Origin: a virus
DNA length: 24,273 bases
IMG/VR virus record: IMGVR_UViG_3300027851_000128
Location: 1-24,273 of that record
Direction: 5' to 3' (one strand)
In this document: positions 1 through 4,129 of the stretch, piece by piece
How positions within the stretch are numbered: the stretch's first letter is position 1
How the letters are laid out: each line of letters begins with the position of its first letter
Notes under the pieces: model-generated
Told to the model about the DNA's origin: nothing
Seen by the model: the letters and a program-made list of their open reading frames with translations, nothing else
Database searches by the model: none
Program-made: the position numbers and the translations under genes

Positions 1-109
1 GTTTTATAGCGGCCACCGCTTCGCTGGCGCGAACATTGGCTGCGTATAAAATATTTTCTAGGGCTTCTAAATTTGCGCCTATCGTTGTTTTTTTAATTTC
101 TTTATCCAT
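1..109 (-). CDS. Partial small protein, unknown function (runs off left edge)
   Basis: An ATG at 107-109 (minus strand) opens a frame of 36 codons that runs uninterrupted to the window edge. A good Shine-Dalgarno (AAAAGGAAAAACT) sits just before it. The visible N-terminus (MDKEIKKTTIGANLEALENI) is polar and then helical. It is preceded at 147-200 by the same composite upstream element found before two other minus-strand genes, which supports it being a real gene. It shows at most faint resemblance to the C-terminal helix of the two paralogues at 186-799. No function can be assigned. Confidence 0.6.
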   Translation of the reverse strand, partial: MDKEIKKTTIGANLEALENILYAANVRASEAVAAIK

Positions 110-146
110 AGTTTTTCCTTTTCTGTTTTGTGTTTACAAATTTAGT

Positions 147-200
147 AACGCTTGGCCGCGCGGCGAAGTCCACTCGGAAAGTGGATCATTTGATTGCTTT
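147..200 (-). promoter_or_regulatory. Composite upstream element, copy A
   Basis: Read on the plus strand, the element is AACGCTTG (147-154), 10 nt, GAAGTC (165-170), 13 nt, GATCATTTGATTGCTTT (184-200). Copies at 838-891 and 2104-2157 have identical spacing. On the gene-sense minus strand it ends 37 nt before the start codon at 109. The distal block contains the inverted repeat ATCAAATGAT, and the P2 stop codon (186-188) lies inside that block. GGACT, 16 nt, CGTT on the minus strand resembles an ECF-type promoter (-35 near GGAAC, -10 CGTT). The promoter role is inferred. Confidence 0.7.
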
Positions 201-488
201 CTTTTCGTTTTGTATTTTTGAAATTTTGGAAAGTTCTTGGGCGGCGGTATGGGCGGCACTTAAAAGTTTATTAAGGTGGCGAAAAACTACAATATGTTGT
301 TCGCAAATATTATCGTGCGTAATACCGTATAGGGAATTTGAAAGTTCGGAAATTTCTTCAAGAAAAGTCGCGCTATCGTATTCAAACAATTCTAGCGCGT
401 CCATAATTTCCCCGCCCGTTAGGTCGGCGGGATTTTTAGAATATAGCAAGTCGTTATAATCTAGGTCGGCGTTATCAACTACGGACAT
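186..488 (-). CDS. Small helical protein, downstream member of a paralogous pair
   Basis: This is a 100-aa acidic, helix-rich protein of unknown function with no signal peptide or membrane segment. It aligns over its length with the adjacent 102-aa protein: both carry an E-L-F acidic segment (ALELFEYD here), then a YGIT or FGIT motif, then QHI...FR.LNKLLS.A, then a polar QN.KK tail. The start is an ATG two nucleotides after the neighbour's stop. Its Shine-Dalgarno (AAAAAGGAA) is formed by the last codons of that neighbour, so the two are probably translationally coupled. The 3' end overlaps upstream element A of the next gene. It is likely a phage early or accessory protein. Confidence 0.75.
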   Translation of the reverse strand: MSVVDNADLDYNDLLYSKNPADLTGGEIMDALELFEYDSATFLEEISELSNSLYGITHDNICEQHIVVFRHLNKLLSAAHTAAQELSKISKIQNEKKAIK

Positions 489-490
489 TT

Positions 491-799
491 TTAAATTCCT
501 TTTTCTTTTTTTGCATTTTGTTTTTTGGTTTCCGCCGCCAATTCTTCGGCCACGCCATAGGCTTCGCTCAATAATTTATTTAGGCGGCGAAATTTGAAAA
601 TATGCTGGCTGGAAACATTTTCGGCGGTAATACCAAAAGTCGAATCCGCGAAGTCGTTTATGTCTTCTATTATGTGGGTAAAATCGTGGTCGAATAATTC
701 TATGGCCTCGGCCTTTTCTTCCCGCGTAAATTTTACGGGCGGCGCGTTATAAATATCGTCATAGAATTTCATAGGGTCTTTTTCGTTTAAAGAAGTCAT
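491..799 (-). CDS. Small helical protein, upstream member of a paralogous pair
   Basis: This is a 102-aa protein of unknown function. Features visible are AEAIELFDHD near residue 32, an FGIT motif near residue 55, QHIFKFRRLNKLLSEAYG (residues 65-82) and a lysine-rich C-terminus. It shares this layout with the protein encoded at 186-488, which indicates tandem duplication followed by divergence. The start has a strong Shine-Dalgarno (GAAAGGAAAAACCT). Composite element B ends 38 nt upstream, so this is the first gene of a two-gene unit. No catalytic motif is seen. Confidence 0.78.
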   Translation of the reverse strand: MTSLNEKDPMKFYDDIYNAPPVKFTREEKAEAIELFDHDFTHIIEDINDFADSTFGITAENVSSQHIFKFRRLNKLLSEAYGVAEELAAETKKQNAKKEKGI

Positions 800-837
800 A
801 GGTTTTTCCTTTCTTTTTGGCAGCCTATATTTCTATG

Positions 838-891
838 AACGCTTGGAAAAAACGCGAAGTCGAGAAAAAATGACGATCATTTGATTGCTTT
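838..891 (-). promoter_or_regulatory. Composite upstream element, copy B
   Basis: AACGCTTG (838-845), 10 nt, GAAGTC (856-861), 13 nt, GATCATTTGATTGCTTT (875-891), read on the plus strand. Block sequences are identical to copy A and spacing is identical to copies A and C, while the 10-nt and 13-nt spacers differ completely. It ends 38 nt before the ATG at 799. On the minus strand CGACT, 16 nt, CGTT could be an ECF-like -35/-10 pair, giving a leader of about 30 nt that contains the Shine-Dalgarno. Its distal block is also the left arm of the inverted repeat at 873-922. Confidence 0.72.
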
Positions 892-922
892 GTTCGGCCC
901 TTTTTGAGCATCAAATGATCGT
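873..922. repeat. 13-bp perfect inverted repeat (paired operator-like sites)
   Basis: ACGATCATTTGAT at 873-885 is exactly repeated in inverse orientation as ATCAAATGATCGT at 910-922, with 24 bp between. Each arm itself contains the small dyad ATCA-AA-TGAT. The left arm coincides with the distal block of composite element B; the right arm stands alone. Paired inverted sites of this kind often bind a dimeric repressor or activator. A structural RNA role is less likely because the intervening loop is long. Confidence 0.6.
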
Positions 923-989
923 AAAAAATATTTGATTTTTTCCGCCGAACGCGGGCTATTAGAACGCGGCCCGACCGCCTTTTATTTCA

Positions 990-1013
990 ATATTCGGATC
1001 CGTATCTGAATAT
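990..1013. repeat. 10-bp imperfect inverted repeat beside the iterons
   Basis: ATATTCGGAT (990-999), a 4-nt spacer, then ATCTGAATAT (1004-1013). One position is mismatched at the DNA level (G.U in RNA). It lies 9 bp before the first iteron. No T-run follows on either strand, so it is not a convincing terminator. It is more likely a protein-binding dyad belonging to the iteron locus. Confidence 0.5.
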
Positions 1014-1022
1014 AAAAACTCT

Positions 1023-1181
1023 ATCTGTTCAAAAATTTGAAAAAGCCATCTGTTCAAATTTTTGGAAATCAAAAACCTATCTGTTCAAAATTTTGGAGAA
1101 CCGATCTGTTCAAAAATTCATGCATGAAAAAGTCATCTGTTCAAATTTTTGAAATTGAAAAAGTGATCTGTTCAAAATTTC
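1023..1181. repeat. Six direct repeats (iterons), core ATCTGTTCAAA
   Basis: Copies of ATCTGTTCAAA followed by an A/T run begin at 1023, 1048, 1079, 1104, 1135 and 1166, giving intervals of 25, 31, 25, 31 and 31 bp. Copies 1 and 5 extend to a near-palindrome (TTCAAAAATTTGAA and its complement TTCAAATTTTTGAA), so each unit has both direct and dyad character. The intervals are either about 3 or about 2.4 helical turns. Copy 6 overlaps the 3' end of the minus-strand gene at 1172-1669, supplying its stop codon and last few codons. Possible roles are replication origin, partition site, multi-copy operator or terminase-binding site. Confidence 0.85.
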
Positions 1182-1669
1182 TGCATTCCTCTGCGGCTGA
1201 TACGTTTTCGCAAATTGTTCAGCCTGACCCATTCATTCGAAAAAGGAATCATAACGTCGATGGAATGCCATGCGTTGATGACGGCTTCTTTTCCGCTTCC
1301 GGTTTGCTGGACAAGGCGTTTGATCATCTGGTTGGGCGTATGGAATCTTTCCTCGCCGAGCGACCAGAACCCGTCAATAATAGCGCCTTCGTGATGGGTT
1401 TGCTTGTAAATAAAGCGGAAGCGGGTGCCGGAATCCAGCACCACGCCTCCCTTGCTCCAAGCAGCGCCCGGCACTTTAAGTCTGATCGATGGGTTATCTA
1501 ATATTTTCGTAACTTCATCGTCCAGATTCATGGGTGCGGATAGCTCAAACATGATGTTTTCCATGATCATGCGATCATGTTCCGCCAGCGCATGATGGCC
1601 ATCCAAGGCTATCCGCAAGGCACCCACAACATAGGCCGCTTGAAGGCCCGTTAAAGTAAAGGTCGTCAA
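1172..1669 (-). CDS. 165-aa protein of unknown function, TTG start
   Basis: The open frame extends upstream to 1759, but that extension overlaps the DUF3489 gene. A TTG at 1669 is preceded by a strong Shine-Dalgarno (AGGGAGG) eight nucleotides before it and lies 10 nt after the DUF3489 stop, so TTG is the preferred start. Residues about 77-140 contain the pattern V-L-D-S-G-T-R-F-R-F-I-Y, E-G-A-I-I-D-G-F-W-S and a later A-W-H-S. This loosely recalls small DNA-associated RAMA or DUF4357-like beta domains, an assignment I hold weakly. The C-terminus is basic (NLRKRISRRGMQKF). It is coupled to a DNA-binding-like protein and ends in the iterons, so a role with that DNA is possible but unproven. 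Confidence 0.72.
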   Translation of the reverse strand: MTTFTLTGLQAAYVVGALRIALDGHHALAEHDRMIMENIMFELSAPMNLDDEVTKILDNPSIRLKVPGAAWSKGGVVLDSGTRFRFIYKQTHHEGAIIDGFWSLGEERFHTPNQMIKRLVQQTGSGKEAVINAWHSIDVMIPFSNEWVRLNNLRKRISRRGMQKF

Positions 1670-1679
1670 GAATGCCTCC

Positions 1680-2063
1680 CTATTGCGCGTCTTCGAGCTT
1701 GTACATGGTTTTGCCGTCGCGGGTGTATTTTGCGATTTGCAGCCCTTCCTTTTTTTCAAGGAGCTTTTTACGGAGGACGGACAAATGCGCCCGCGCGGTA
1801 TGCGGCAGCCATCCGGTGATCTTGATCATCTCATCGATGGTGATGCCATTTTCGCTCTTGAGCGCCGCCATGATACTGAGCGTCTTACTGACGTTCTTTG
1901 GCGACAATTTATCAGCCTTCGGCTTGACGTCGGCTTTGGGCTTTTGCGTGGTTTTAGACGCCTTGGGCTTGCCGGCTGCCTTCGGCTTTACCGCCTTCGC
2001 GGTTTTGCCTTTTTTGACAGCCTGGTTCGGTTTTTTGCTTTTGGTTTTGCTCTTGCTGGCCAT
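1680..2063 (-). CDS. DUF3489-type protein with histone-like basic tail
   Basis: This 127-aa protein starts at the ATG at 2063, which has a Shine-Dalgarno (GAAAGGAAAATTACA). The longer frame to 2177 would swallow composite element C. Residues 1-55 are almost entirely Lys, Ala, Pro, Ser and Thr, like histone H1 tails. Residues 57-124 form a compact domain with the ITIDEMIKITGWLPHTAR signature (GW-x-PHT at 84-89), typical of DUF3489 proteins, which look like small winged-helix folds. It is divergent from the terminase operon across a 146-nt interval and is followed closely by the 165-aa gene. It is probably a DNA-binding regulator or nucleoid-like protein; a substitute small-terminase role is conceivable since none is seen. 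Confidence 0.85.
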   Translation of the reverse strand: MASKSKTKSKKPNQAVKKGKTAKAVKPKAAGKPKASKTTQKPKADVKPKADKLSPKNVSKTLSIMAALKSENGITIDEMIKITGWLPHTARAHLSVLRKKLLEKKEGLQIAKYTRDGKTMYKLEDAQ

Positions 2064-2103
2064 TGTAATTTTCCTTTCATAATGGGTTAACAGCATCGCC
2101 ATG

Positions 2104-2157
2104 AACGCTTGCGTCAAAACGGAAGTCCAGCGCCAAAGCGGATTAGATGATTGCTTT
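2104..2157 (-). promoter_or_regulatory. Composite upstream element, copy C
   Basis: AACGCTTG (2104-2111), 10 nt, GAAGTC (2122-2127), 13 nt, GATTAGATGATTGCTTT (2141-2157). Spacing is identical to copies A and B; the distal block has three substitutions that break the ATCAAATGAT dyad. It ends 40 nt before the ATG at 2063. On the minus strand GGACT, 16 nt, CGTT gives the same ECF-like reading as copy A. It occupies the shared interval with the divergent terminase gene. Confidence 0.7.
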
Positions 2158-2209: not shown

Positions 2210-4129
2210 ATGCAAAACCAGAACGCCGAATTGATTTATGGGACGGCCTTCCGGCACGGCCTGAAACCCGATCCGCTTATTACCGTATCCCAATGGGCCG
2301 ACCAGCACAGGCGGCTCTCCAGTAAATCGGCTTCCGAGCCGGGGCCGTGGCGGACAAGCCGAACGCCCTATCTGCGGGAGATAATGGATTGTCTTTCGCC
2401 GCGCTCGCCTGTCGAGCGCGTTGTTTTTATGAAAGGCTCCCAGCTTGGCGCTACGGAATGCGGCAATAACTGGATCGGCTATATCATCCACCACGCGCCG
2501 GGGCCGATGCTATCCGTGCTGCCCACGGTGGAAATGGCCAAACGGACATCGAAACAGCGGCTGGAGCCGCTTATCGATGAAAGCCCTGTCCTGCGGGAGC
2601 GGATAAAGCCGCCGCGTTCGCGTGACAGCGGCAACACGATCATGGTCAAGGAGTTCCAGGGCGGCGTCCTGGTATTGACGGGAGCGAACAGCGCGGTCGG
2701 CCTGCGCTCGATGCCTGTCCGTTATTTGTTTCTGGATGAGGTTGATGCCTATCCCGGCGATATTGATAACGAAGGCGATCCGGTCATGCTGGCGGAAGCC
2801 AGGACGCGGACATTTTCGCGCCGGAAAATCTTTCTTGTCTCCACGCCGACGATCAAAGGCATCTCGCGGATCGAACGCGATTACCTGAATACGGATCAAC
2901 GGCGCTACATGCTGCCCTGCCCGCATTGCGGCGAGGCGCAATGGCTCAAATTCGAGCAGCTAAAATGGCCCAAGGATCTGCCGGAGCTGGCGCAATACGA
3001 ATGCGAACATTGCGAAGCCCAGATCGATGAGCATCACAAAACATGGATGCTCGATAATGGTTTCTGGCAGGCGCAAGTCGAAAGCGCCGATCCGAAAACG
3101 GCGGGCTTTCACCTGTCGTCACTGTATTCGCCACTCGGCTGGCGGGCCTGGGCGGATATCGCCCGCGCATGGATCGACGCGCAAGGATCGGATTCCGCCA
3201 TCAAGGCTTTTAAAAACACGGAGCTTGGAGAAACATACGTGGAAACAGGCGATGCCCCAGACTGGCAGCGGCTATACGAACGCCGCGAGGATTACAAAAT
3301 CGGAACCGTCCCCAGGGGCGGTTTTTTTGTGACCGCAGGCGTCGACGTTCAAAAAGACCGGATCGAAGCGTCCGTATGGGCGTGGGGCCGCGACAAGGAA
3401 AGCTGGCTGGTCGAACACCGCGTCATGGACGGCGATACATCGAGGCCGGAGGTTTGGAAAAGCCTCACCGCGATGGTTTCCGAAACATGGACGCACGAGT
3501 CCGGCTGCGAATTGCGGCTGGCCCGCGCGGCCATCGACTGCGGCTATGCCACGCAGGAGGTTTATGATTGGGCGCGCCGGAATCCTATCGCCATGCCCGT
3601 CAAAGGCGTGGCGCGCGGCGCGGCCCTGGTCGGCGGCCTGTCCAGCATCGACACCACATCCGATGGTAAAAAGCTGCGGCGCGGCCTGAAACTCCGGCCT
3701 GTTTACGGCCATATCGCCAAGCTGGAATTGTTCGGGAACTTGCGGAAAAACCCGCCGACCGACGAAAGCGGCGATCCCTATCCGCCCGGCTATGTCCACA
3801 TCCCCAAAATGGATGAGGAATATATCAAGCAGCTTTGCGCCGAGCAGCTCGTCACGAAACGCAACCGGGCCGGATACGCCCTGCGTGAATGGCAAAAAAC
3901 GCGGGACAGAAACGAAGCTCTTGATTGCTATGTCTATGCCCGCGCCGCCGCCGCCATGCACGGCCTTGACCGCTTTAATGAGCGGCGCTGGCAGGAACTG
4001 GAACGCTCTCTCGGCCTCGACCACGTTCCGTCCCGCGTTATGGATGCGTCCGACGATCAGACGCCGCCACCCTCGTTTCCTTCAACACCCCAAGGCCGCC
4101 GTGCGCGGAGTAAAGGCATAAAATTATGA
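2210..4129 (+). CDS. terL: Terminase large subunit, GpA family
   Basis: This is a 639-aa ATP-dependent DNA packaging motor and nuclease that docks on the portal and fills the procapsid. The lambda-type deviant Walker A KGSQLGATE is at 75-83, Walker B LFLDEVD at 173-179 and the coupling motif VSTPT at 210-214. A Zn-binding pair CPHC (237-240) and CEHC (265-268) follows. Nuclease-domain acidic residues are seen in GVDVQKDRIEA (Asp379), AAIDCGY (Asp443) and RNEALDCYVYA (Asp572). Length matches lambda gpA. The start ATG has only a weak Shine-Dalgarno. The stop overlaps the next start (ATGA). No small terminase gene precedes it; the upstream neighbour is divergent. Confidence 0.97.
   Translation: MQNQNAELIYGTAFRHGLKPDPLITVSQWADQHRRLSSKSASEPGPWRTSRTPYLREIMDCLSPRSPVERVVFMKGSQLGATECGNNWIGYIIHHAPGPMLSVLPTVEMAKRTSKQRLEPLIDESPVLRERIKPPRSRDSGNTIMVKEFQGGVLVLTGANSAVGLRSMPVRYLFLDEVDAYPGDIDNEGDPVMLAEARTRTFSRRKIFLVSTPTIKGISRIERDYLNTDQRRYMLPCPHCGEAQWLKFEQLKWPKDLPELAQYECEHCEAQIDEHHKTWMLDNGFWQAQVESADPKTAGFHLSSLYSPLGWRAWADIARAWIDAQGSDSAIKAFKNTELGETYVETGDAPDWQRLYERREDYKIGTVPRGGFFVTAGVDVQKDRIEASVWAWGRDKESWLVEHRVMDGDTSRPEVWKSLTAMVSETWTHESGCELRLARAAIDCGYATQEVYDWARRNPIAMPVKGVARGAALVGGLSSIDTTSDGKKLRRGLKLRPVYGHIAKLELFGNLRKNPPTDESGDPYPPGYVHIPKMDEEYIKQLCAEQLVTKRNRAGYALREWQKTRDRNEALDCYVYARAAAAMHGLDRFNERRWQELERSLGLDHVPSRVMDASDDQTPPPSFPSTPQGRRARSKGIKL

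Follow-up and report, generated by a model that had tools for sequence, protein, structure and literature searches.

A repeated promoter-like element in register before unrelated small genes marks a candidate phage regulon

An element of 54 nt with fixed internal spacing was found three times in the window (the whole stretch of DNA that was analysed, a virus record of 24,273 nt that codes for a GpA-type terminase, a portal, an S49 protease, and tail tube and tape measure proteins), and considerably more than a hundred phage contigs have the same element, likewise in register, upstream of small genes that are unrelated to one another. It belongs to a large, apparently undescribed family and is taken here to be the promoter of a phage regulon, with a probability of roughly 0.78; the proposal of a sequence-only reading of the window, that a shared promoter-operator marks a small phage regulon, is supported for a promoter-like element. 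Comparison of sequences establishes that the element keeps a fixed register, forms a family and has a promoter-like layout; it also establishes the gene context, the single DUF3489 gene per genome and the likeness of copies within a phage. A search of the open literature with the exact motif text and with DUF3489 returned no paper naming the element.

The three copies were located at 147-200, 838-891 and 2104-2157 of the window, all read on the minus strand and each upstream of a Shine-Dalgarno sequence (SD) and an ATG. They share the pattern AACGCTTG-N10-GAAGTC-N13-GAT.A..TGATTGCTTT, in which the spacers are constant in length and variable in sequence. This gapped pattern had exactly 3 matches in the window and, at ≤3 mismatches, none in 100 dinucleotide-preserving shuffles; 32 of the 54 positions were identical across all three copies (best other site in the window, ≤20/32). 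The three composite copies with rigid spacing that had been described from the letters alone were thus recovered, and an SD was seen before each start codon as well, while the distance to the start codon, given earlier as 37-40 nt, was corrected to 36, 38 and 40 nt from the end of AACGCTTG (ATG at 108-110, 797-799 and 2061-2063, minus strand). Because relatives conserve GCGTTCAT, of which AACGCTTG spans only CAAGCGTT, the conserved unit extends 3 nt beyond the earlier limit and is better set at 144-200, 835-891 and 2101-2157 (all minus strand). Placed by the register of the family, the -35-like hexamers on this strand are TGGACT at 167-172 (copy 1), TCGACT at 858-863 (copy 2) and TGGACT at 2124-2129 (copy 3); the hexamers at the -10 position, 17 nt away, are GTTACT at 144-149 (copy 1) and GTTCAT at 835-840 and 2101-2106 (copies 2 and 3). 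A distal block, AAAGCAATCAAATGATC, lies at about -47 to -63 (minus strand; 184-200 in copy 1, where it overlaps the final codons and stop of the preceding gene 186-488; 875-891 and 2141-2157 in copies 2 and 3); it is present in close relatives only and is UP-element-like or operator-like.

Copy 1 (exact gapped-pattern match, family register) precedes a gene at 1-110 (minus strand, ATG at 108-110) that is truncated at the left end of the record. Copy 2, likewise an exact match in the family register, precedes the gene for a small protein of 102 aa (491-799, minus strand) and then that for a protein of 100 aa (186-488, minus strand); the two are paralogues with 42% identity, and the second, which has no Pfam or PHROG family, has no element copy of its own and is separated from the first by a 2-nt gap. 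Copy 3, a pattern match, lies in the divergent gap beside the gene for the GpA-type terminase large subunit (2210-4129, plus strand; PF05876 and PF20454) and precedes a gene for a DUF3489 winged-helix protein of 127 aa, whose N-terminal tail is rich in Lys (1680-2063, minus strand; PF11994, E=2.3e-11), the candidate regulator, followed by a gene for a 165-aa protein (1172-1669, minus strand; TTG start, SD GGGAGG). Six iteron-like repeats ATCTGTTCAAA.TTT in steps of 25 or 31 nt (window 1023-1192) sit between the 3' end of gene 1172-1669 and copy 2. G+C content was 34-42% in window 1-1200 and 54-64% from about 2100 onward; the leftmost cassettes look like a recent acquisition or a switch of contig source, and the shared element argues against a chimeric contig.

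When viral and genome collections were searched with exact patterns, only intragenic or single chance matches were obtained (L003-L008), which were discarded on reading the surrounding sequence, and searches with the small proteins of the window found no relatives. The terminase did lead to relatives: in L009-L014 the same element was found in the same register upstream of the terminase and before a small gene, which is the position of copy 3, and in L026 and L027 it stood in register before a small gene farther from the terminase. A position weight matrix seeded with eight sequences (the three copies in the window plus five relatives) picked up sites of a larger, more compact main class at other loci with a score of 14.5, against a maximum of 3.6 in the reversed-sequence null. 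Iterated, it found at least 435 sites (at least 298 distinct) in 226 loci and 2.06 Mb of phage DNA, many of the contigs being fragments, and none in reversed sequence; iterated models favour sequences like themselves, so that the weight lies on the independent checks. In whole records, the gapped pattern at ≤3 mismatches had matches in 24 of 27, with a reversed control near zero. At DUF3489 loci that scored low with the main model, a relaxed pattern gave 72 matches at the spacing of the family versus 32-56 at other spacings; in L100 no element was found. Of seven plasmids retrieved via DUF3489 alone and not via the motif, four carried the element (Eleftheria, Shinella, Roseicitreum and Agarilytica, the last with an entire element array) and three did not. 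The block conservation that had been named as a test of the sequence-only reading was seen in part: the -35 and -10 parts are conserved across the family, whereas the distal block is conserved only among the nearest relatives.

The main form of the element is CTTGGCTTC-N7-AACAGCGCGTTCAT, also written GCTTGGCTTC-N6-GAACAGCGCGTTCAT; divergent classes read GTTGATTACACT...AGAGCGATTCT, TTGATAA...GAATGAAGCGTTCAT and TTGATGT...GAGCGTTAAT, and the window has a divergent class of its own, TGGACTTC...CAAGCGTTCAT. Nearly all sites share TTG or TGG at -35, a spacer of 17 nt, the GC of the GCG that opens the -10 region and the T that closes it. TTGGCT occupies the -35 position in 268 of 298 distinct sites (TTGACT, TTGAT. 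and TTGATA also occur in the family; box consensus TTGRYN), and GTTCAT the -10 position in 231 of 298. An A/T-rich patch lies at -42 to -40, and close relatives of the window carry an additional AAAGCAATNAAATGATC at about -63 to -47. Measured against sigma70 promoters, the -35 hexamer is near TTGACA (mean 1.96 mismatches) with a 17-nt spacer, whereas the -10 hexamer is far from TATAAT (mean 3.0 mismatches) and has T at -11, where sigma70 requires A; a standard sigma70 scan missed all three window copies. The distance from GTTCAT to the start codon has a median of 35 nt. At 287 of 334 distinct sites (86%), a start codon with an SD and an open frame of ≥40 codons lies 28-41 nt past GTTCAT; the corresponding shares are 3.2% for random positions and 6.9% for the opposite strand.

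The constant distance to SD and ATG would also suit an element that acts in the RNA, as an mRNA leader governing translation or stability of the kind proposed for start-associated sequences, and in some copies CTTGGCTTC is flanked by the arms of an inverted repeat of 10-12 bp. There was, however, no Rfam match, and the arms do not covary, because their complementarity is no greater than that with the left arms of other sites; the spacers are constant in length and not in sequence, the parts are arranged as in a promoter, and an action in the RNA is judged quite improbable. The inverted repeat is perfect over 10-12 bp and spans the -35 box, as GAAGCCAAGC-N6-7-GCTTGGCTTC, in some main-class copies (for example L073:4982, L069:4999 and L221); it is commonest upstream of DUF3489 and of a small number of further families and may be an additional operator. 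Improbable, too, is the view that the repeats are operators only, bound by a repressor or by a partition or replication protein, with the true promoters elsewhere. A GAAC-N5-GTTC dyad in the main form would fit it, and the homogeneity of copies within a phage would fit any trans-acting factor; yet the dyad is missing from the divergent classes and from the window, and the sigma70 scan found nothing better in the stretch from copy 1 or copy 2 to the SD that follows; behind copy 3 it gave just a 9-of-12 site that overlaps the start codon.

The suggestion that expression follows host stress through the alphaproteobacterial sigma factor EcfG did not hold up and is considered very unlikely. EcfG, which is confined to alphaproteobacteria, reads GGAAC-N16-CGTT (PMC3892343), and the likeness lies in the -10 position, where CGTT follows [GC]GACT after 16 nt in all three window copies (16-17 nt being expected). 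None of the 298 distinct sites has GGAAC at the -35 position; there, the window copies read GGACT or CGACT, and TTGGCT or TTGAT. is seen in the family. The element is moreover not limited to alphaproteobacteria: AcaML1 has it, as do Eleftheria (beta) and Agarilytica (gamma), and EcfG is absent from these (PMC3892343).

The genes downstream of the element fall into several dozen families, nearly all of them unknown; among ten representatives, Pfam gave names for DUF6900 and DUF3489 only. In the arrays beside the terminase, membership varies among phages and each gene retains its own element. Records have up to 11 copies, with the control pattern near 0, and in three of them (G014, G015 and G025) copies lie on both strands. 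Besides Acidithiobacillus phage AcaML1, replicons of beta-, gamma- and alphaproteobacteria have the element, among them the Eleftheria (beta) and Agarilytica (gamma) plasmids; hosts were identified for AcaML1 and the plasmids only. AcaML1 has four copies: three adjoin the terminase, and the fourth lies close to site-specific recombinase genes. This extra copy, CTTGGCTTCYTGCCCGACCAGCGCGTTCAT, stands before gp4, outside the terminase-side array, and is near-identical at L232:3012-3051, G008:39356, G013:11232 and G022:2235. Two plasmid records, Agarilytica pSU2 (L242) and Roseicitreum pRA03 (L241), have an element array and DNA methyltransferase genes, and pRA03 also carries a phage terminase; because of the terminase in pRA03 and the methyltransferase genes in both, they may be phage-plasmids.

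Within a phage, the core of the element had an identity of 0.909 between copies before different gene families, compared with 0.879 when phages were swapped within a family (0 of 200 permutations), a homogeneity that fits recognition by a phage-specific or host-specific factor. Identity of the upstream flank was scarcely higher within a phage than between phages (0.311 vs 0.298); the flank instead tracks the family of the downstream gene (0.383 vs 0.298), and so does the leader (0.480 vs 0.351). Promoter and gene therefore seem to move as a unit, with no break at the element. The modular gene content of the arrays could suggest that the repeats are cassette boundaries, i.e. recombination sites at which small genes are swapped among phages, which is barely credible given that flank and leader travel with the gene and that the copy has a set place before the start codon and on one strand only. 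A cos site (one copy adjoins the terminase) was rejected, as there are several copies per genome before other genes, and there is no support for Frpo, a single-stranded DNA promoter in which -35 and -10 are presented within a conserved hairpin, as complementarity around the -35 arm equalled that of the permuted control.

DUF3489 was present exactly once in 25 of 25 IMG/VR records, in the window and in AcaML1 (27 of 29 records in all); it was missing from RcBaka and WO, which have no element, and from all 14 control genomes. AlphaFold predicts one winged helix (residues 55-127) for the window protein and two for a longer class, and structure comparison returned winged-helix proteins with Z up to 10. 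Foldseek alone, within the families that its collections cover, gave nothing below E 0.001 for either model, a sequence search of solved structures gave no credible match, and T4 MotA (E=0.79) was set aside as noise. In a partial Mantel test, covariation with the element was r 0.47 for DUF3489 and r 0.47 for the terminase, with similar values for control families; because this covariation is inseparable from shared lineage, the role of DUF3489 is put forward as a hypothesis. In many phages of alphaproteobacterial type the DUF3489 gene lies behind another leader. This different, conserved leader (L082, L088, L094, L095, L097, L098, L101, L102, L104, L105, L108, L109, L110 and L013) runs from a GC-rich hairpin through GTAGAAG or a near variant to a second hairpin, the arms of which co-change (covariation judged by eye), and then to the SD, and it resembles a cis-regulatory RNA. 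A phage-encoded sigma factor was rejected as the reader of the element, as sigma region 2 (Sigma70_r2) was found in 0 of 29 records, some of which may be incomplete; a Sigma70_r4_2 match in G010 was barely above the cut-off and was taken as a generic helix-turn-helix.

On the promoter reading, every small gene or gene pair in the modular terminase-side cluster would have its own copy of the element, to which the host RNA polymerase probably binds through the A/T patch near -42, TTGRYN at -35 and the 17-nt spacer, with a start site predicted about 28 nt before the ATG. Because the -10 position holds the unusual GCG-GTTCAT instead of TATAAT, the promoter probably requires, or is tuned by, a lineage-specific trans-acting phage factor, and one virus-encoded DNA-binding protein probably controls the genes jointly. 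The best candidate would be the DUF3489 winged-helix protein, of which there is one per phage; its gene is itself usually in the regulon, so that the circuit would be autoregulatory. That DUF3489 is the regulator is a reasoned guess, and we tentatively put its binding to the element at slightly worse than even odds. We also infer transcription from the element, a direction of control, and a time of action of the genes that would be early in infection or at the establishment of lysogeny. A more specific version appears rather doubtful: that host RNA polymerase reads this promoter class only with DUF3489 as a factor akin to those of sigma appropriation, which would switch on swappable small genes for takeover or counter-defence in temperate phages across several classes of proteobacteria.

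The closest analogues are the establishment regulons of plasmids, CUP/ArdK and EGeRS2/Reg. In the IncN/IncW plasmids pKM101 and R388, ArdK was shown experimentally to bind direct repeats of TTGACA adjacent to the -35 box of CUP elements (PMC6289460, PMC9723621). As there, one promoter-containing element precedes unrelated genes in several copies; the small helix-turn-helix protein that is coded in the plasmid regulon and also controls itself would have its counterpart here in the candidate, the DUF3489 winged helix, once per record; the present element differs in belonging to phages, in having no TTGACA direct repeat that could be seen and in its candidate regulator. In the p576-pLS20 plasmid family, repeated promoter regions precede establishment genes, and one precedes the repressor gene (PMC8708921); the repetition of a promoter region before several genes is alike, but these are Gram-positive plasmids with the repressor motif TTATCCCnnTTATCCC, a sequence unlike the phage element. 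The SAS of cluster K mycobacteriophages, GGGATAGGAGCCC, overlaps the SD and is 3-7 nt from the start codon (PMC3203893). SAS/ESAS resemble the element in that they are conserved across phages and repeated, for the most part in a single orientation, ahead of many non-structural genes from different families, whereas the element is about 35 nt upstream of the start codon.

The element provides a sequence handle on many uncharacterised small phage genes that are seemingly co-expressed. DUF3489, an uncharacterised family, may be the regulator of those genes, and the motif makes the gene set searchable. The regulator is directly testable in the cultured AcaML1 system and with the DUF3489-bearing plasmids, and the establishment regulons of plasmids suggest, by analogy, that the genes which the element would control are candidate takeover or counter-defence genes.
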